DNA from: Halobacteriales archaeon QH_7_66_36 | GTDB taxonomy: Archaea; Halobacteriota; Halobacteria; Halobacteriales; Haloarculaceae | Length of the DNA stretch: 64,000 bases | NCBI GenBank assembly: GCA_003021175.1 | Contig: PXQV01000001.1 | Location: 125,869 to 189,868 of the forward strand | Direction of reading: 5' to 3' | Part shown: positions 1-64,000 of the stretch, one piece after another | How positions within the stretch are numbered: position 1 is the first letter of the stretch | How the letters are laid out: each line of letters begins with the position of its first letter | The notes under the pieces: model-generated | Database searches by the model: none | Seen by the model: only the letters and a program-made list of their open reading frames with translations | What the model was told of the DNA's origin: nothing | Position numbers and translations under genes: made by a program

Positions 1-873
1 CAGCGACGGGAGCGTCGAACAGCCGACGCCGCTCGCCTCGATGATCCCGTACACCCGCATCGCCTGAATGGTGCGGAACAGCATCGCCACCAGCACCGTC
101 GGCAGCACGATGGGGAGCGTGATGAGTTTGAACCGCTGCCACGTCGACGCGCCCGACACCCGGGCCACGTCGTAGAGGTCGCGGTTGACGCTCTGTAGGC
201 CCGCGAGGATCAACAGCGCCATGAACGCGGTCGTCTTCCAGATGTCGGCGACGATGGTGATCATCGCCGCGTCGATCGTCGTCTGGAGCGGCGAGTCCGA
301 CAGGATGCCGGCCTGCTGGAGCGACAGCGGCCCCTCACCCACGAACGGGCCGATCCCGGGGGCGAAGAACAGGTAGAAGATCATCCCTTGGATGACGATG
401 GGAACGGCCCATGGGATGATGATGACCACCCGCGCCCACCGACGCCCGCGGAAGTCCTGATCCAACACGAGCGCCTGTCCGAACCCGATGATCGTCTCGA
501 AGAACACGCTCGCGATGGTGAAGATGAGCGTCACCGTCAGGGCGCTCCCGAAGATCGCCTTCACCGAGAGCGAGGTCGGAATGAACGGGGCCGGCAGCAG
601 CGCGTTTCGCTCGCCGGTCAGCACGGCGAGGTAGTTCTGTATCCCGACGAACTCACCGACGGTCGACGTGCCGGTGATGGCGTCGGCGAACAGCGAGAGC
701 CGGAACGTGGAGAGGAGCGGCCAGAAGGCGATGGCGCCCAACAGCAGCAGCGCTGGCGTCAACAGGAAGTACGCGAACTGCGTCTCCGACAGATTCTCCA
801 TCCATCGGATGAACGAGGCGTACACTCCACCCCCTTCGCCCGGCAGCGTCTCTGTTTCGTGTTCCGTTGCCAT
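1..873 (-). CDS. ABC transporter permease, MalF/UgpA type (3' end outside window)
   Basis: Inner-membrane permease of a carbohydrate-type ABC importer. The 291 codons present hold several hydrophobic segments; the first runs from about residue 33 after a short hydrophilic N-terminus. Near residues 233-259 is the cytoplasmic EAA-type loop (DVARVSGAS, then ITLP), which docks on the ATPase subunit in this family. ATG at 871-873 is the first start after the binding-protein stop. The gene lies 27 bp downstream of the solute-binding protein on the same strand, so the two probably form an operon continuing leftward to a second permease and an ATPase outside the window. The sugar cannot be inferred. 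Confidence 0.93.
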   Translation of the reverse strand, partial: MATEHETETLPGEGGGVYASFIRWMENLSETQFAYFLLTPALLLLGAIAFWPLLSTFRLSLFADAITGTSTVGEFVGIQNYLAVLTGERNALLPAPFIPTSLSVKAIFGSALTVTLIFTIASVFFETIIGFGQALVLDQDFRGRRWARVVIIIPWAVPIVIQGMIFYLFFAPGIGPFVGEGPLSLQQAGILSDSPLQTTIDAAMITIVADIWKTTAFMALLILAGLQSVNRDLYDVARVSGASTWQRFKLITLPIVLPTVLVAMLFRTIQAMRVYGIIEASGVGCSTLPSL

Positions 874-900: not shown

Positions 901-2424
901 TTAACCCTGCCCCTCGAGCGAAACGAGGGTTTCTTGCAGTTCGGTCATCGCCTCCTCGGGCGTCTTCTCCTGTCGGATCGCGGCGTTGACCTGCTGTGAG
1001 ATCTTGCTCGACTGGGACGGCCAAACGGCGGTGACGGGTCGCGGCACCGAGTTCTCGCCGGCCACCTTCAGCGTGTCCACGTACCGACCGAGCGGGTCGA
1101 GTTCGCGAGCCTGATCCGAGTCGACCAGCTCCGGAATCGGCGGGATCCAGCCGACCGCTTTGAAGATGTCCAGCCGGACCTGATCCGTCTGGAGCGCGTC
1201 GAGCATCTGCACCGCGGCCCGCTTCTGCGTCTCCGGGGCGTGTGGGTTGAGCGCGAGATGCCAGCCGCCTAGCGCCGAGGTCGAGCCGCCGATCTCGGGC
1301 CCGTACGGCGAGTCGCTCGTCGACGTGTGGTACGGAATCGGCATCGCGCCCAGATCCTCGCCGAAGCCGGTGGTGTCGCCGCTTCCCGGCTCGCCGCCGT
1401 GGAGGTCGAACACGTACGGCCAGTTGCGCAGCGCCACCAGGTCGCCGTTCGCGAACGCTTTGCGCGACGGCTCCTCCGTGTACGAGACGGTGTTGGACGG
1501 CGAACACTGGGTGAAGTCGCTCAGCGCCTCCGGGTCGTCCTGTCCGTTGATGAACGTCCGCATCATCCGGACTGCGTCGATCACCTGTTCCTCGTCGACG
1601 GTGACCGGGCGGTCGTCGACCGGGCCGAACAGGTTGGAGAACTCGCCGAAGTAGGAGCCGCCCCACGACCCCATGAACTCGACGAAGTCACAGCACGCCA
1701 AGCCGACGTAGTTCTTCCCCTGCCAGCCGAAGCCGCCCTTCGTGCCGGTTTCGTCCCACACCTGCGCGACCGCTTCCGAGAACGTGCTCCACTCCATCGG
1801 CTCCGTCGCCCACGTCTCGAAGTCGGAGTCGGAGTATCCCGCCTCGCGGAACAGGTCCTTGCGGTACTGGACAGTCGGGAACGCCGCGAACAGCGGGACG
1901 CCGTACAGGTCGCCGTTCTGGTCCTGTGCCGTCGCGACCATCGAGTCGAAGTAATCCTCCTTCACCGTGCTCGTGATCGACTCCGGCAACGCCTCGCTGA
2001 GGTTGGTGAGCTCGTTGCGAGCGATGAACGGAATCGTCCACCCGTTGTCCATCATCAGCAGCGTCGGCTGTTCCTGTTCGGCGTTCAGCAACTGCTGATA
2101 CTTCGCCTGCCGGTCGCCGCTCTCGAAGGAGCCGGCGGTGACTTCGAGCGAGATGTTGTCCGGCATGCCACCGCTCTCGTGGAGCGACTGCTCGATGGCG
2201 TCGACGTTGTCGTTGAACAGGCTGTCGGCGCCAATCTGGAGGGTGACCTCCTCGTCGGGCGCCTCCGTGCTGATCGGCTCCGCGGTCGAGTCGTCGCTCT
2301 CGCCGCCGCCACCGGTACAGCCGGCGAGGCCGACGGTGATACCGGACGCGCCAGCAGCTTGGACGAACCGCCGCCGCGAAACGCTCGTGTTCTCCTCGTC
2401 GTCTCGGTTGAGTCCCCGTGACAT
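901..2424 (-). CDS. ABC transporter sugar-binding lipoprotein (extracellular solute-binding protein family 1)
   Basis: Secreted receptor that would capture a sugar outside the cell and deliver it to the permease next door. The 507-residue protein begins with a Tat signal (SRRRFVQ at 16-22), a hydrophobic stretch and a lipobox LAGC with Cys36 as the lipidation site, followed by a Gly-rich linker typical of haloarchaeal binding proteins. The start ATG at 2424 gives a proper Tat signal; an in-frame extension further upstream would run through the TATA box and palindrome and was rejected. The TATA-like box about 27 bp upstream of the ATG implies leaderless transcription. Similar to MalE/UgpB-type proteins; ligand unknown. 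Confidence 0.93.
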   Translation of the reverse strand: MSRGLNRDDEENTSVSRRRFVQAAGASGITVGLAGCTGGGGESDDSTAEPISTEAPDEEVTLQIGADSLFNDNVDAIEQSLHESGGMPDNISLEVTAGSFESGDRQAKYQQLLNAEQEQPTLLMMDNGWTIPFIARNELTNLSEALPESITSTVKEDYFDSMVATAQDQNGDLYGVPLFAAFPTVQYRKDLFREAGYSDSDFETWATEPMEWSTFSEAVAQVWDETGTKGGFGWQGKNYVGLACCDFVEFMGSWGGSYFGEFSNLFGPVDDRPVTVDEEQVIDAVRMMRTFINGQDDPEALSDFTQCSPSNTVSYTEEPSRKAFANGDLVALRNWPYVFDLHGGEPGSGDTTGFGEDLGAMPIPYHTSTSDSPYGPEIGGSTSALGGWHLALNPHAPETQKRAAVQMLDALQTDQVRLDIFKAVGWIPPIPELVDSDQARELDPLGRYVDTLKVAGENSVPRPVTAVWPSQSSKISQQVNAAIRQEKTPEEAMTELQETLVSLEGQG

Positions 2425-2466: not shown

Positions 2467-2488
2467 ATTTACAACTGCTGTTGTAAAT
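2467..2488. promoter_or_regulatory. Perfect palindrome, probable TrmB-family operator
   Basis: ATTTACAAC (2467-2475), TGCT, GTTGTAAAT (2480-2488): perfect 9-bp arms around a 4-bp spacer. It sits just upstream of the BRE/TATA of the binding-protein gene and just after the regulator gene, in an otherwise very short intergenic region. A site upstream of BRE/TATA suits an activator better than a repressor; TrmB proteins can be either. The link to this particular regulator is inferred from position. Confidence 0.65.
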
Positions 2489-2514: not shown

Positions 2515-3621
2515 TTACAGTCGGCTGAGGACGCCGGCCGCCGGCTGGTCGTCGGGGACAGAGACGTCCTCGACGATGACTCGTTCTGCTTCGACGTCTT
2601 CCACCATCGCTCCCCAACCACCGACCGTCAGCGCGGAGCCGTCGTCGGTGACGACGACGACGGTGACCCGCCCCGACAAGCGGAGCGCCGTGTCCGGGGC
2701 CTCGGGCGCGCCGGTGAACAGCGCCTCGCTGACGGTGCCGCTGACGGCGACGTCCGCCCCGGTGTCGACCCGAACGCCGTCGACGTGGACCCTGACGGTC
2801 GCATCCGATTCGAGCAGCGGCTGGAGGTCGCGAACGCACTGTCTGATGTCGACGTACGCCACCGGGAACGACCCCGCGGAGTCGCTGTACACGGTCTCCC
2901 ACCGCTCCCACAGGCAGGTGAGGAAGTACCAGTGGAACACGTACGTGTGCGTCCGGTCGTTCACCAGCACGCCGTACAGGTCGACGGAGCCGGGGTGGTG
3001 ACAGAAGCAGGTCTTCTCCCGGTCGACGAGCGCGACGAACGGGGCGGGGAGCCGGCGGTGGCGCGCCTCCAAGCAGGCGCCGGCGAGAAGGTCGGACGAG
3101 GGCGGGTCGTCTTCCGGTTCCGTGTGGACCGACACCCGCACGGAGACGCCGCGCTCGTGTGCGTCCTGCAGGAGCGGTCGGAGTTGCTCGAACTCGCGGG
3201 GCGTCACCGAGAGCTGTATCTGGTACTCTGCCTCCCGGATGAACGCCTTCGCGCGCTCCAGCACGGTCTGAAACCGCTTGACGACGCTCGTTCCGGCGTT
3301 CTCGATATCCGGCTGTTCCCACCGCTGTTCCACCTCCGCTGCGGCCGCCTCGAATCGGTCGGCGCGCTCCCGGAGGTCTTCGAGCACGTCGGCGGGACTG
3401 TGTGCTCGCGCGCCGAGCGTGTCGGTCTCGTACGTCTCGACGTACCCCTGCGCTTCGAGCGCATCGATGACGTCGTAGATGCGCGGCTTCGGGACGCCGC
3501 TCGCGTCGGCCACCTCGGTGGCGGACGCGGTGCCGAGTTCCAACAGCGTGACGTACGCCTCCGCCTGGTACGGCGACAAGCCCGCCGTCTCCAGCGTCTC
3601 GACTAACTCCCCTGTATCCAT
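2515..3621 (-). CDS. TrmB-family sugar-responsive transcription regulator
   Basis: The 368-residue protein has an N-terminal winged helix (about 10-75) with the TrmB pattern: an SPYQAEAYVTLLELG helix, then PKPRIYDVIDALEAQGYVE as recognition helix and wing. A predicted helical linker (about 80-115) and a C-terminal sensor region with a PLD-like fold in family members follow. TrmB proteins bind sugars and control sugar transport or central carbon genes. It lies directly upstream of, and co-directional with, the sugar-binding protein gene, with the palindrome at 2467-2488 between them, so local control of this transporter is likely. The short spacer to the aldo/keto reductase stop (3660) leaves that gene as a possible upstream operon partner. 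Confidence 0.9.
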   Translation of the reverse strand: MDTGELVETLETAGLSPYQAEAYVTLLELGTASATEVADASGVPKPRIYDVIDALEAQGYVETYETDTLGARAHSPADVLEDLRERADRFEAAAAEVEQRWEQPDIENAGTSVVKRFQTVLERAKAFIREAEYQIQLSVTPREFEQLRPLLQDAHERGVSVRVSVHTEPEDDPPSSDLLAGACLEARHRRLPAPFVALVDREKTCFCHHPGSVDLYGVLVNDRTHTYVFHWYFLTCLWERWETVYSDSAGSFPVAYVDIRQCVRDLQPLLESDATVRVHVDGVRVDTGADVAVSGTVSEALFTGAPEAPDTALRLSGRVTVVVVTDDGSALTVGGWGAMVEDVEAERVIVEDVSVPDDQPAAGVLSRL

Positions 3622-3659: not shown

Positions 3660-4646
3660 CTAGTCCTTGTTCGGCGCGGGCCACCGCGGCGTGATGGGCG
3701 CTTCGATGCGAGCCATCTCCTCGTCGGTCAGCGACACGTCCAGCGCCGCCACGTTTTCCTTCAAGTGTTCCGTGCGTCGCGGCCCGATGATCGGCGCATC
3801 GACGACGTCCTTGTGGAGGAGCCACGCTATCGACACCTGCGCGGGGGTCGCGTCCTTCTCGTCGGCGATGGCCCGTATCGCGTCGAGCACCTGCCAGTTC
3901 TCGTCGGTGAACCGCGCCGCCGTGTAGTCGTCCTCGGCCGCGCGGCCGCTCACGGGGTCGCTGTCGCGTTCGTATTTGCCGGCGAGGAAGCCGCCGGCCA
4001 GCGGCGACCACGGGATGACGCCCACGTCCTCCGCCGCGCAGGCCGGGAGGACGTTCGCCTCCTCGTGGCGGTCGACGGCGTTGTACTCCGGCTGCATCGA
4101 GACGAACCGCTCGTGGTTCCCCGCGTCGGCCTGATACAGCGCCTTCGTGAACTTCCACGCCGACATCGTGCTCGCGCCGACGTACCGGATCAGCCCCTCC
4201 TCGACGAGATGATCGAGCGCGGCCAGCGTCTCCGACAGCGGCGTCTCGTCGTCGAACCGGTGAATCTGATACAGGTCGATGTAGTCGGTGCCGAGTCGTT
4301 CGAGCGAGGCGTGACACTGGTCGATGATGTGTTTGCGCGACAGGCCGTCCTGATTCGGCCCGTCGCCCATCGAGTGGTACACCTTCGTCGCCACGACGAG
4401 TTCCGAGCGGTCCCGCTCCGCGATGGCGTCGCCGACGATGCGCTCGCTCTCGCCGCGCGAGTAGACGTTCGCCGTGTCGAGGAAGTTGATGCCGGCGTCC
4501 ATGGCGGCCGCGAGCAGTTCGTGACTCTCCGCCTCGTCGTGGATCATCCACGGCTGTTCGGTGCCGAAGTTCATGCAGCCGAGACAGAGCCGCGACACCT
4601 CCAGTCCGGTCGCGCCGAGCCGCGTGTACTCCATATCCGTCGACAT
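3660..4646 (-). CDS. Aldo/keto reductase
   Basis: NAD(P)H-dependent reductase of carbonyl compounds, 328 residues, a full-length (alpha/beta)8 barrel. The catalytic tetrad is visible: Asp57 and Tyr62 in FLDTANVYSRGESE, Lys88 in VVATKVY, and His129 in YQIHRFD. The C-terminal IIGPRR segment matches the cofactor-binding region of the YhdN/Tas-like AKR branch. The ATG at 4646 (MSTDMEYTRLG) was preferred because the family begins at YTRLG; the in-frame extension to 4721 lacks homology-like sequence. It lies 38 bp upstream of the TrmB gene on the same strand, which would fit sugar or polyol metabolism, but the substrate is unknown. Confidence 0.92.
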   Translation of the reverse strand: MSTDMEYTRLGATGLEVSRLCLGCMNFGTEQPWMIHDEAESHELLAAAMDAGINFLDTANVYSRGESERIVGDAIAERDRSELVVATKVYHSMGDGPNQDGLSRKHIIDQCHASLERLGTDYIDLYQIHRFDDETPLSETLAALDHLVEEGLIRYVGASTMSAWKFTKALYQADAGNHERFVSMQPEYNAVDRHEEANVLPACAAEDVGVIPWSPLAGGFLAGKYERDSDPVSGRAAEDDYTAARFTDENWQVLDAIRAIADEKDATPAQVSIAWLLHKDVVDAPIIGPRRTEHLKENVAALDVSLTDEEMARIEAPITPRWPAPNKD

Positions 4647-4719: not shown

Positions 4720-5529
4720 ATGGACCGACTCGACGCGCTCCGGCCCCCGGCTCACACCGGCGACGACCGCTGCAGGCCGTGTACGGTCGTGAACGTCGCT
4801 ATCGTCGCCATCGCCGCGCTCCTGCTCGGTCGCCGTCGCCGCGGAGCGGGTCTCGCGGTGGCGGCGGTCGGCCTGCTGGTCGTGTGGCTCCGGGGGTACG
4901 TCGTCCCCTTCACGCCGCGGTTCGCGCCGGCGCTCGTCGCGGCGTCGCCGGTTCCCGACGAGTGGTTCGGCCACGAGCGCGCGCCTGCCCCCGGCCCGAC
5001 GGAGGGACTCGGAGACGACGTGGACGGCGAGGAACTGCTGGGACGGCTCGTGGAGGCGGGCGTGCTGACGGCCGACGGAGAGGCGGTCGACCTCGCCCCT
5101 GACTTCGCCGCTGCGTGGGAGGCAGAGATGGAACGGCTCGCGGCGCTGTCGACAGAGGCGCTCGCGGACGCGACGTTCGACGTCGCCCGCGCCGCCGACG
5201 CCTCCGTCGTCGACGGAACTCGTCGCGAGTGGATCGTCCTCGGGGACGGGAGCGGCGACGTGGACGCACAGACGTGGCTCTCGCGGCCGGTCGCTGTCGC
5301 GGAGACGGCCGCCGCCACCACGCTCGCCGGGTGGCTATCGGACCCGACCATCCGTCGCGCGGCCGCCGGTCCGCTCCGCGTCTTCCTCTCGGAGTGTCCC
5401 GACTGCGGGACGGCGCTGGTAGAGTCTTCGACGATGGCCTGCTGTGGCGGCACCACGACGCCCCGCGAGGAACCGGACGACGTGCTCGCCTGTCCCGACT
5501 GTGACGCACGGCTCCACACCTTCGAGTAA
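4720..5529 (+). CDS. Haloarchaeal membrane-anchored protein with C-terminal zinc-ribbon-like cysteines
   Basis: Not recognised as a characterised family. The 269 residues start with two closely spaced hydrophobic segments (about 24-60) separated by an Arg-rich turn, suggesting a hairpin membrane anchor. An acidic, Ala-rich middle region follows. At the C-terminus are CPDC, ACCGG and a second CPDC spread over about 45 residues, probably a zinc ribbon on the cytoplasmic side. It is divergently transcribed from the aldo/keto reductase (74 bp between starts) and its TAA is close to the promoter of the ROK gene. The function is unknown; zinc binding is inferred from cysteine spacing only. Confidence 0.75.
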   Translation: MDRLDALRPPAHTGDDRCRPCTVVNVAIVAIAALLLGRRRRGAGLAVAAVGLLVVWLRGYVVPFTPRFAPALVAASPVPDEWFGHERAPAPGPTEGLGDDVDGEELLGRLVEAGVLTADGEAVDLAPDFAAAWEAEMERLAALSTEALADATFDVARAADASVVDGTRREWIVLGDGSGDVDAQTWLSRPVAVAETAAATTLAGWLSDPTIRRAAAGPLRVFLSECPDCGTALVESSTMACCGGTTTPREEPDDVLACPDCDARLHTFE

Positions 5530-60663: not shown

Positions 60664-61605
60664 TCACTCGATCCCGAGCCGGTCCTTGAGCTTCCCGACG
60701 ACGCCCTCCTCCTGCTTTCGCTGTTGCTCCTCGTGTGCCTGCTGTTCGCGCAACTCGGCGAGCGCCGCCGCCTGATCGTCGGTCGTTCCCTCCGACCGCT
60801 CCGCCTCGGGGTCCGCGCCGCGCATCGCGTTGAGTCCCTCAACCGCGGCGTCGACACTCGACGACGACGACCGCGTCTGGGTGGCGCTGTCCGGGTCGAA
60901 GCCGGAGGTGTCCACGTCGTCGACCTCGCCCGTGTCCACCGAGAGCCGGCGGCTCACGTCCGTCTTCTCGACGCCGCCCCACGAGATGTCGGCGTCTTCC
61001 ATCGCCTCCTCGTAGTCGCGTTGCGCCTGCTCGGCCACCGCCTCCTCGTCGAGCGCGGAACCGGCCGTCCCGTCGGTGGCCGCGCTACCGCTTCCATCGC
61101 CCGTCTCTGCCTCCGCCGCGTCCCCTGCGGGCACGCCCTGCGTGCGTTCGACATGGTATGAGACGAGTGCCGCGCCGGTGGCCGAGACGACGGTCACCAA
61201 GCCGACGGCGTAGACGACCACCCCCTGAAACGAGAAGTCCCGTCCGGCCGTCACGTTCCACTGACTCGGATACACGGAGACGAAGAACGCCGCGGCAGCG
61301 AGGGTGATCGCCGCGCCGACGCCCGCGGCGTAGGAGGCCCGCCGGTCGACCGGGAGCAGGACGGTGACGCCGAGCAGCAGTATCGGCAGTCCGAGCGCCC
61401 CGACGACGAACGCCAGTTCGCGGAGCGCCCACAGCGGCCCGTCGCTCGCGACGGCGCGCTCGACGCCGAACAGGAGCAGGCCCACGATACCGAGCGCGAT
61501 CCCGCCGATGAACAGCGTGAAGCCCAGATACACGTCGAGATCCCGTTCCGGCTCCCCGAGATAGCGCCGGTATATCTCGTCTGCGCGTGCGTTAAGATCC
61601 GCCAT
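60664..61605 (-). CDS. Haloarchaeal membrane protein upstream of the actin-like gene
   Basis: A 313-residue protein with four or five hydrophobic helices between about residues 28 and 165, then a long soluble C-terminal half. The latter is acidic, carries DADISWGGVEKTDVSRRLSVDTGEVDDVDTSGFDP, and ends in a charged coiled coil (ALAELREQQAHEEQQRKQEEG) and a basic-acidic tail. It is not a recognised family by eye. A TATA-like GCTATTATCCC about 27 bp before ATG 61605 supports this start over a TTG 9 bp upstream. It precedes the salactin-type gene by 57 bp, so it is a candidate membrane anchor or regulator of the filament. Confidence 0.8.
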   Translation of the reverse strand: MADLNARADEIYRRYLGEPERDLDVYLGFTLFIGGIALGIVGLLLFGVERAVASDGPLWALRELAFVVGALGLPILLLGVTVLLPVDRRASYAAGVGAAITLAAAAFFVSVYPSQWNVTAGRDFSFQGVVVYAVGLVTVVSATGAALVSYHVERTQGVPAGDAAEAETGDGSGSAATDGTAGSALDEEAVAEQAQRDYEEAMEDADISWGGVEKTDVSRRLSVDTGEVDDVDTSGFDPDSATQTRSSSSSVDAAVEGLNAMRGADPEAERSEGTTDDQAAALAELREQQAHEEQQRKQEEGVVGKLKDRLGIE

Positions 61606-62050
61606 GCGACTCAATTGCTACCGAGGGATAATAGCGGTTTGGTGGCGTCGGACGGTCGGCTGACGCCGTTGTGAACAGGCCGCCCTCGCTCCGCACGCGA
61701 GCGGGTGGGCCACGCTCCCGCTTCGACTGTGCCCGAAGCCATCCCTCGTGCTGATGCTTTGGCTCCAGAACATCGTCACAGCCGCTATGCGTCATGTGAT
61801 TTGTACGTGGCTGGTTGCACCCACTAAGATACATCGCTAATCACTCTCAAGATATAGAATATGAGGCTATTCGATATGCCGACCAACCGAGTGCCCCTAT
61901 GCACAGGTGAATTAGGATTCTGAGGATCAAAAAAGAGTTGTACCCCGATTTGTTGTACCCTTGGCTGTAGTAATCTGCCGTTAATTACTCAAAAGTGTTT
62001 ATAATTGATACGTCGAAAGTAATAATACTAACCGGTTGTGTGACCATGTC
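61606..62050. other. Intergenic boundary of the AT-richer accessory tail
   Basis: From about 61800 on the base composition drops sharply below that of the preceding genes. The gap holds the promoter of the membrane protein (near 61630) and a repeated GTTGTACCC pair (near 61936 and 61953). A TATA box GTTTATAATTG (61997-62007) serves the following protease gene. A reading frame of about 80 codons on the minus strand (61592-61834) shows no domain, signal or start signal and is not called a gene. Confidence 0.6.
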
Positions 62051-63155
62051 ATGGGAAACGAAAACAACTCCCACACCAAGAACAGTAGGCGAGCATTTCT
62101 GAAACGAACGGGCCTGAGTGCCACACTCGTGGGATTCGTAGGCTCTGCATCGGCCACCGAGTATGTCGAAATAGTGACCCACGTTCAGGGGGACCAACCA
62201 AAGTTCACTAAAGAGGTCCCGAAATCTTGGGTCGACCATCACGAAGCAGCCAAGCAAGCGAAAGAAACTCTCAGAAACAAATACTTTAATACTGAGGGAT
62301 TTAGTCGGGTTTCCGTTGGGCCGTTCGATCACTACTTCGGGGGAAAGCGCGGTTTTGCGGTCTACGTCGGGATCACGAGTAGTGACTTGGCCGACCAGCT
62401 CCCATCCAATGTCAATGGGGTTCCTGTCGTTACAGAGGAGTACGAAGAGCCAACCAACCTATCAGCCTGTTACAATGATATAAATAAAGACGATGTCCCC
62501 GGTGGAATCATTTTTGATGGAACTGGGACATCCGGCTCGCAGTTCTACATAGATACCGACGGTGACGGCAGTTACGAACAATATCTAATGACTGCTGCCC
62601 ACGTCACCGGCGACGAATGTTATGATCAGACTGGAACAGATGTCACGCAGAAGGACGACACGTGGGGGTACGATTATCCAGCAGTCGTCCAGTACGGATA
62701 CGGTGGTGTGCGATCCTTACTACGGGTATAGCGTGACAAACGAAATTCGAGAGCAAGACGGTTCAACTAAATTTGTCGTCGGGTCTGTTAGCGAGAGCGG
62801 TTTAGCTGATATTATCTCATCCAGTACGGAAACTGTTAGAAAGACAGGAATTGCTCTAGGAACGAACTATGCTGGTGTTATCCGCAAGGATGTCTCTGAT
62901 GGCTTCTCCTCATGTGTCGATTATAACCACGAAGGAGTTAGAGTGGAAAATAACGGGGCACCGGGAGACTCTGGTGGCCCTATTTATGACGTTCAAGATG
63001 GGGATGCCTACATCGTCTCATTCACATCAAAGGGCGAAGACCCAACAGATAGCTACGATTGCGACGGGGCTCAGATTTATGATAAAGTTGTCGGCCCCTC
63101 CGCACACAATCTGAAAGATACCTATAACGGGGTATTTACTGCCCCCGTCGGCTGA
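62051..63155 (+). pseudogene. Secreted trypsin-like serine protease, frameshifted
   Basis: A Tat signal (NSRRAFLKRTG then a hydrophobic region and SASA) begins a protein whose catalytic triad is divided between two frames. His is in LMTAAHV before the shift; Asp is in STDTVV and Ser in GAPGDSGGPI in the next frame. The shift can be placed at the GGGGG run 62664-62668: with one G fewer the frame would read TWGTIIQQSSSTDTVV and continue to 63155. As read, translation ends at 62729-62731. An alternative ATG at 62036 is possible. It may be an inactivated gene or a sequencing error. Base composition is unlike that of most of the window. Confidence 0.85.
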
Positions 63156-63227
63156 TCGTAACGTGATCTTTCGGAAGTTCAAATACGCGTTTTATGATTC
63201 CACATGATTATGATTACTGACAATCAA

Positions 63228-63902
63228 ATGCTCAATATGAACCGACGCCAGCTCTGTGGCGGCATCTGTGCGGGAGCCGCCATCTTAGTGGCGGGCTGTA
63301 CGGGAACGAATGGCGGCCAAGATCCGTCCTCGGAGACGGATACAGAGTCGGAGCCGACACCTCCATCCGGAGATGTTCAGCGGCGCGTCACTCTCGCTGA
63401 ACAGGATAGTGCCCCTGACCAAACGGCCATCGAGCTGACTGCGGAAGTCACTCAGCCTTGGATTACAACTGAGAAGACTGCTCTCGTCCGTATCTCGACT
63501 ACAAATCGCGGCTCTGAGCGAGCCCTTTCAGTCGGAGAGAGTCGATGCGCGATATTCAATCGCAATCAAAAAGGCAGTGATAAGCCGGCCGGCCTGTGGT
63601 TGCACCGACAACCTGAAGAAACGCCTACACGGGTAAACAACAAGTGGGTTGCAGACAAGCCCGCCGGCGAAGCTCGAGGACAGGCGTTGTACTACTGCCC
63701 CCCACGGACCTACGAATCAGGAGAAACGGTGTCGACCACGTATCAGGTGTGGCACGATTACCGAGAAGACGGCTACCTTGACCCCGGAGAGTATCGGTGG
63801 GAGCAGGGAATCAAAGTGTGGGATGACCCAGAAGCGGATGGAAGCCCGGACCCCGGCGAGAAGTTTAGCTGGGGATTCACCCTTCGCGTCAGTGAAGGGT
63901 AG
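63228..63902 (+). CDS. Tat-exported lipoprotein of unknown function
   Basis: A 224-residue protein starting MLNMNRRQLCGGICAGAAILVAGC: a twin-Arg pair, a hydrophobic helix and a lipobox LVAGC. A Ser/Thr/Pro-rich linker follows and then a single beta-sandwich-like domain (ITTEKTALVRISTTNRGSERALSVGESRC; TYESGETVSTTYQVWHDY; PGEYRWEQGIKVWDDP; FSWGFTLRVSEG). The latter resembles haloarchaeal intracellular-proteinase-inhibitor/BsuPI-like folds by pattern only. It follows the protease gene by 72 bp; a role beside it is possible. Starts at 63204, 63228 or 63237 are all in frame. Confidence 0.75.
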   Translation: MLNMNRRQLCGGICAGAAILVAGCTGTNGGQDPSSETDTESEPTPPSGDVQRRVTLAEQDSAPDQTAIELTAEVTQPWITTEKTALVRISTTNRGSERALSVGESRCAIFNRNQKGSDKPAGLWLHRQPEETPTRVNNKWVADKPAGEARGQALYYCPPRTYESGETVSTTYQVWHDYREDGYLDPGEYRWEQGIKVWDDPEADGSPDPGEKFSWGFTLRVSEG

Positions 63903-63913
63903 GCCCTGAGCGG

Positions 63914-63929
63914 CAGGTAAGGTTACCTG
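63914..63929 (+). terminator. Hairpin after the lipoprotein gene
   Basis: CAGGTAA (63914-63920), GG, TTACCTG (63923-63929): perfect 7-bp arms, 11 bp after the TAG. The remaining sequence to 64000 shows no further feature. Confidence 0.45.
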
Positions 63930-64000
63930 TCGAGAGTGTGGCAGGCTCCCTTCATACTGGTGACCGCGTACGCACTTCATTCTATCGTCTGTGTGAGTAA

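Follow-up and report, generated by a model that had tools for sequence, protein, structure and literature searches.

The question raised by this locus is what purpose is served by an inverted repeat lying between the gene for a TrmB-type regulator and the promoter of a sugar transporter. The locus is part of a 64,000-nucleotide stretch of DNA from Halobacteriales archaeon QH_7_66_36, which was analysed as a whole and is called the window here. The original prediction described a perfect 9-4-9 palindrome at 2467-2488, and direct reading of the window found exactly this element, ATTTACAAC-TGCT-GTTGTAAAT, to which no strand is assigned. On the minus strand, the trmB gene (2515-3621) ends with its stop at 2515, the palindrome follows 26 bp past this stop, and the TATA-like element TTTTATATAT (2456-2447, minus strand, read from the sequence) and the start codon of the solute-binding protein (SBP) gene at 2424 come next. 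The SBP gene (901-2424, minus strand; SBP_bac_8 in the domain search) is the first gene of a carbohydrate ABC operon, in which it is followed by a permease gene (1-873, minus strand; BPD_transp_1 in the domain search) and, beyond the window, by genes for a second permease and then a MalK-type ATPase. The SBP searches described below used 931-2424, which is nine residues short at the C-terminus.

The position of the TATA-like element suggests that the SBP transcript is likely to be leaderless. In the bases between the palindrome and this element (2466-2457, minus strand) no clear purine-rich BRE could be found, and the term BRE denotes a position, not a sequence, in this report. The earlier description of the palindrome as lying between trmB and the BRE/TATA of the SBP gene was thus right about the gene order and the TATA-like element, while the BRE could be seen as a position only. 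Genes for pyruvate kinase, a PfkB kinase, an aldehyde dehydrogenase and an enolase-superfamily protein are located on the same contig as the ABC operon, on the opposite strand, which led us to infer a glucose-type catabolism; glucose or a glucoside is the likeliest ligand judging from this gene neighbourhood (pyruvate kinase, enolase-superfamily protein and PfkB kinase). On the other side of trmB lies a gene for an aldo/keto reductase (3660-4646, minus strand; domain search), which the loci of relatives revealed as a common neighbour of this type of regulator. It is followed at 4720-5529 (plus strand) by a gene whose uncharacterised product has a CxPCT motif close to the N-terminus and no Pfam match; look-alikes of this product adjoin the regulator or its neighbour in several loci, some with a palindrome of their own. 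At the far end of the window (61500-64000), the G+C content drops from about 0.68 to 0.49-0.57, possibly marking a mobile or foreign segment.

With up to 3 mismatches allowed, the palindrome matched the window at its own place only (100 dinucleotide shuffles gave an expectation of 0.00). Its inner 20-mer, TTTACAAC-N4-GTTGTAAA, was found in the 2.6 Mb genome at one exact place and at one place with 3 mismatches, with no second site in this genome at ≤2 mismatches and no match in the 2.6 Mb to the reversed control. A genome search for further copies had been suggested; at ≤2 mismatches the 16-mer core gave 14 places in this genome versus 22 for its reversed control, so that no further copies above chance emerged, and none of the places beyond the palindrome was exceptional.

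The protein encoded at 2515-3621 (minus strand) matched PF01978 with 58.7 bits (cut-off 25.6; TrmB winged helix, residues 10-65) and PF11495 with 190.5 bits (cut-off 22.2; sugar-binding domain, residues 112-351), as is characteristic of the two-domain sugar-sensing TrmB family. Its score against NF047392, the haloarchaeal TrmB equivalog, was 158.3 bits, under the curated cut-off of 500. In trees, which contained clade-B proteins of this and other genomes rather than VNG1451C itself, and for which loci L003 and L004 served only as members, the window protein fell in clade A ('TrmB3'), apart from clade B of Halobacterium/Haloarcula-type TrmB. The one other PF11495 protein of this genome, encoded on contig 18 beside gfcR and glucose dehydrogenase, belongs to clade B. 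By domain scores and tree placement, the regulator is thus classed as a TrmB3 (HAH_1557-like) paralogue and not as a Halobacterium-type TrmB. This fits the proposal that the palindrome may define the site of a different TrmB subgroup, the adjacent TrmB being in a clade separate from that of the TrmB with the known motif. Pyrococcus TrmB contacts sugar through G320 and E326; in an alignment with 3qph, G335 and E341 of the window protein stand opposite these two, in a stretch that scores only -0.4 bits.

Conservation was examined in 391 genomes of the class, 224 of which encode a protein matching the window TrmB at E≤1e-60; such matches are called TrmB3-like here, their clade being assumed and not taken from individual tree placement. 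Eighty loci were fetched by a thinned walk down the ranked TrmB matches, and exclusion of L154-L156, which had been picked from motif hits, left 77; the stretches taken for L108 and L111 were extended as far as a motif hit already known. An SBP homologue was present in 55 of the 77 loci, and 53 SBP promoters could be scored, L100 and L105 being dropped when the script found no start codon (although dropped, L100 does carry a site with 2 mismatches, 49 bp away from its SBP). The scored motif was derived from the window, which is itself outside the 53 promoters. The site was found at ≤1 mismatch in 15 promoters, at ≤2 in 24, at ≤3 in 37 and at ≤4 of 16 in 46, and 300 permuted half-sites gave means of 0.07 (maximum 2) at ≤3 and 0.51 (maximum 5) at ≤4 in the same promoters. 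When spacers of 0-12 were compared, spacer 4 gave 37 promoters, spacer 7 gave 3 and all others gave none. A motif-blind count of spaced dyads in one 110-bp promoter per genus (n=22) placed its top pairs in the same element: ACA-N5-TGT in 19 (1.05 expected), CAA-N6-TTG in 13 (0.54) and AAC-N4-GTT in 12 (0.97).

Positions 4, 5, 7, 14, 16 and 17 of the 20-mer were invariant in all 46 sites. The consensus was TTWACAACASCTGTTGTAMM, with the core ACWAC-N4-GTWGT, which occurred exactly in 38 of the 53 promoters (mean of 0.035 in mononucleotide shuffles). Failure of conservation in relatives had been set beforehand as grounds for refuting the prediction; instead, the site recurred at ≤4 mismatches in the large majority of promoters and in at least one locus of all 22 genera, from six families, at a fixed distance from the SBP gene, although the 53 loci share descent and these counts are therefore not independent. 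At ≤4 mismatches the upstream site was absent from six of the 53 promoters (L091, L092, L095, L099, L104 and L106, five of them loci of genus g20), and L117 has 5 mismatches at the expected place. The recognition helix of TrmB3 (residues 44-50 in the window protein) reads PxPRIYD or PxARIYD, and among the regulator-site pairs compared the P form went with GTTGT-type and the A form with GTAGT-type sites. Of 7 A rows, 6 had a GTAGT-type site (in one case on the opposite strand), compared with 4 of the 42 P rows that have a core; phylogeny confounds this difference.

The site was centred 49-58 bp before the SBP start (-49 to -58) in 41 of the 46 promoters, and the other five were at -27, probably through wrong picks of the SBP start. 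In those 41, a distance of 39-48 bp separates the end of the 20-mer from the start codon, which places the element upstream of the expected TATA if the transcript is leaderless. The activator-like placement that had been proposed was thereby borne out as a placement only. The gap from the site to a TATA-like 8-mer was 5-12 nt, with a median of 9, in 47 promoters including the window when the search was restricted to the downstream side; when the most AT-rich 8-mer was sought anywhere between -70 and -18, 25 of 41 promoters had it downstream, with a gap of 5-11, whereas in the remaining 16 it overlapped the site or lay upstream of it. Only the distance to the start codon, and not the TATA gap, can therefore be relied on. 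Spacing to trmB varied from tens of bp to 3.1 kb, and where the SBP gene is unlinked to TrmB3 the SBP promoters still keep the core near -57.

These distances also bear on the idea that trmB transcripts end in an RNA hairpin or terminator formed by the palindrome. A 9-bp stem could form on transcription from the trmB strand, but its folding was unexceptional (z -1.76, with 12 of 200 shuffles equally good), the T-rich stretch about 10 nt further on is the TATA element, and in relatives it is the spacing to the SBP gene, rather than to trmB, that is retained, even where the SBP gene is unlinked. On the ordinary folding and the spacing, this explanation was rejected as the main one, and the chance that it is correct appears negligible.

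In four loci of g20 (L092, L095, L104 and L106), a core with 1 mismatch adjoins the start codon (centre at -5), on the downstream side of a TATA-like stretch. Such start-proximal near-cores were found in 4 of the 53 promoters (mean 0.19, maximum 2 in shuffles); the placement is repressor-like and, coming from four related promoters, is a lead only.

Across the 391 genomes, a site at ≤1 mismatch was found in 45, at one place each, and the reversed pattern in none. A TrmB3-like protein was encoded in 41 of these 45 genomes versus 183 of the 346 others (Fisher 2.5e-7, from a hand count that ignores phylogeny). TrmB3 lies within 8 kb of 24 of the 45 sites. Of the rest, 7 accompany other SBP genes, 2 accompany GH68/GH32 genes, 8 (all in genus g3) have a chorismate-synthase gene nearby, and the last 4 are at genes for a GntP permease (G336) and CbtA (G037), inside a Polysacc_synt gene (G208) and between MCP and S12 genes (G227). 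The g3 copies (L007 and L012-L018, from eight genomes) are apparently unrelated to sugar genes. The G336 palindrome (L165, 6826-6845) lies about 100 bp upstream of the GntP-family permease gene, possibly a sugar-acid target.

A second set of loci was chosen by SBP rank and TrmB3 status and not by the motif, leaving out L236, in which no SBP N-terminus was found, and G355 and G345, which had been chosen by the motif. The exact core was present in 22 of 29 TrmB3-positive loci versus 1 of 7 TrmB3-negative loci (Fisher 0.005), and was thus missing from 7 and 6 of them, respectively. In G318 and G144 the site lies about 160 bp upstream of trmB3 itself. From these associations, TrmB3 is very likely the protein that binds the palindrome. 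The counter-cases are three genomes lacking TrmB3, two with a ≤1-mismatch site (G355 and G345, the latter assembly 91% complete in 450 contigs) and one with the exact core (G123), which are the main evidence that something other than TrmB3 can maintain or use the site. The three genomes drawn from the window's own genus (G228, G314 and G342) lack TrmB3 (E≤1e-60), a ≤1-mismatch palindrome, the SBP (E≤1e-95) and gfcR (E≤1e-50) together, which suggests gain or loss within the genus.

All three counter-cases have a clade-B TrmB, and the Halobacterium-type TrmB, encoded in this genome on another contig, might therefore be the protein that binds the site, with the outer TAC-N10-GTA frame common to both motifs. 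However, the six TrmB3-negative genomes without the core also have PF11495 proteins, and those placed in the tree include clade-B members for five of the six (all but G156), and the usual neighbour of the site in the loci examined is the TrmB3 gene, so that binding by the clade-B TrmB is quite improbable.

Further copies of the site in relatives raised a similar question about GfcR, the activator of glucose and fructose degradation. Sites at ≤3 mismatches precede gfcR in L118, L124, L133 and L138, and lie farther off in L122; G355, which is without TrmB3, has two gfcR copies. Assignment of the site to GfcR is nevertheless contradicted by G318, which has the site and no gfcR at E≤1e-5, and by G144, in which only three frame-broken pieces of gfcR were found. 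In addition, gfcR occurs in 349 of the 391 genomes, compared with 224 for TrmB3-like proteins, and all seven TrmB3-negative genomes of the SBP-chosen set have it, yet six of them are without the core. GfcR acts on the pyruvate kinase gene in Haloferax volcanii (PMC11519228), but in this genome that gene has no site, as follows from the lack of a second 20-mer match at ≤2 mismatches. GfcR was rejected as the main binder because the site is present without an intact gfcR and the core is missing from gfcR-bearing genomes, and we regard its ownership of the site as highly improbable.

Sites at ≤3 mismatches were also found before GH13-like genes (identified from their N-termini only) and before a gene for a protein resembling, by eye, that at 4720-5529 of the window. 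Sites at ≤1 mismatch precede a GH68 gene with an adjoining GH32 gene in G292 and a GH32 gene in G031. Taken with the copies before gfcR, these positions suggest that the operator probably couples uptake to sugar breakdown in some lineages.

With TrmB3 as the putative binder, the remaining question is the direction of control. In archaea, activators usually occupy a position upstream of BRE/TATA, from which TFB or TBP is recruited (PMC5937170), and for members of the TrmB family a site upstream of BRE/TATA means activation and one downstream of it repression (PMC4158304). The palindrome is located at the upstream-activator position, just upstream of BRE/TATA, by reading in the window and by SBP distance in the relatives. 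By analogy with archaeal activators, GvpE and TrmB-family members, TrmB3, if it is the binder, would likely activate the SBP operon rather than repress it. A TrmB3 dimer would occupy the two half-sites, which immediately precede the BRE/TATA position of the SBP promoter, and help TFB and TBP to assemble, turning on the sugar-ABC operon under the control of sugar bound to the C-terminal domain of TrmB3. Haloarchaea of many genera keep the palindrome in the same place, and a protein bound there would be expected to switch the gene on.

A site so near the TATA could, however, also hinder TFB. It is conceivable that the bound TrmB3 dimer denies TFB access to the BRE and is released only by sugar, in the manner of Pyrococcus TrmB at malE. 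Pfu TrmB represses the TM operon from a site at BRE/TATA (PMC4158304), repressed genes of Haloarcula hispanica have motifs overlapping the BRE, with one exception (PMC10817205), and in six promoters of g3 and g5 the most AT-rich 8-mer overlaps the end of the site. Nevertheless, the motifs of H. hispanica are generally upstream of the initiation elements, consistent with activation (PMC10817205), and in the 41 promoters with the usual spacing the 20-mer ends upstream of the expected TATA of a leaderless transcript. Repression thus appears rather unlikely, and we favour, with moderate confidence, the palindrome as the operator from which the adjacent TrmB3-type regulator activates the SBP operon. 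A class-wide TrmB3 regulon, absent from the papers searched, in which ACWAC-N4-GTWGT activates uptake from a GvpE-like position and drives gfcR and glycan-cleaving enzymes in some lineages, with start-shifted repression in g20 and an A/P change in the helix matching GTAGT versus GTTGT, can be drawn from the same sequences only as a tentative and somewhat doubtful extension.

Haloarchaea have an average of three sugar-sensing TrmB homologues per genome, and before the 2024 study of H. hispanica, which added HAH_1548, only VNG_1451C had been characterised in haloarchaea (PMC10817205). In H. hispanica, HAH_1557 (trmB3) flanks a carbohydrate ABC system that is also flanked by the TrmB orthologue HAH_1548 (PMC10817205), and gfcR is HAH_1560 (PMC11519228). 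Genus g3 was dubbed 'Haloarcula-like' because its genome G016, in which roughly 10 kb separate a clade-A from a clade-B gene and gfcR lies some 2.3 kb from the former, shows the layout of these three genes. Judged from gene order alone, HAH_1557 is very probably the orthologue of the window TrmB3. Within the literature searched, it is mentioned only in PMC10817205, the available parts of which give no function or site for it. No report of the palindrome as a site was found among the matches listed for literature on the motif, haloarchaeal TrmB, GfcR and HAH_1557, closed-access papers being covered only in small part.

GvpE, a leucine-zipper-like protein unrelated to TrmB, offers a likeness in layout: its UAS in gas-vesicle promoters has 20 nt, with two 8-nt elements and a 4-nt spacer, adjoins the BRE, and requires this close distance (PMC4390858). 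Thermococcales TrmBL1/Tgr resembles TrmB3 in sensing sugar and in having a palindrome at an activating position upstream of BRE/TATA (PMC4158304). On direct reading, however, the palindrome does not match the Thermococcales glycolytic motif (TGM) TATCAC-N5-GTGATA, which has another half-site and another spacer. MalR of Sulfolobus acidocaldarius serves the maltose operon, and its site, two repeats of ATAATACT, has no such palindrome. Like TrmB3, MalR belongs to the TrmB family, and it is listed as an activator in a table of PMC4158304.

The closest comparison is with Halobacterium salinarum TrmB (VNG1451C), a member of the same two-domain family with a palindromic site, TACT-N(7-8)-GAGTA (PMC3794607, PMC4158304), that activates from upstream sites (PMC4158304). 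Its gene is not next to a transporter, whereas the trmB3 gene here adjoins one. The palindrome, reading TACAAC-N4-GTTGTA, does not match the Halobacterium motif, and the original prediction was correct that the two differ, since the inner bases are AAC/GTT; it overstated the difference, as the outer TAC-N10-GTA is shared with the N7 form and 6+4+6 equals the 16 positions (4+7+5) of TACT-N7-GAGTA. As a putative operator, the palindrome would be of a new type within an established family of regulators. It provides a concrete, testable operator and a likely target set for a further group of TrmB paralogues in many genera, and a natural comparison in which paralogues retain one spacing frame and change the inner bases.
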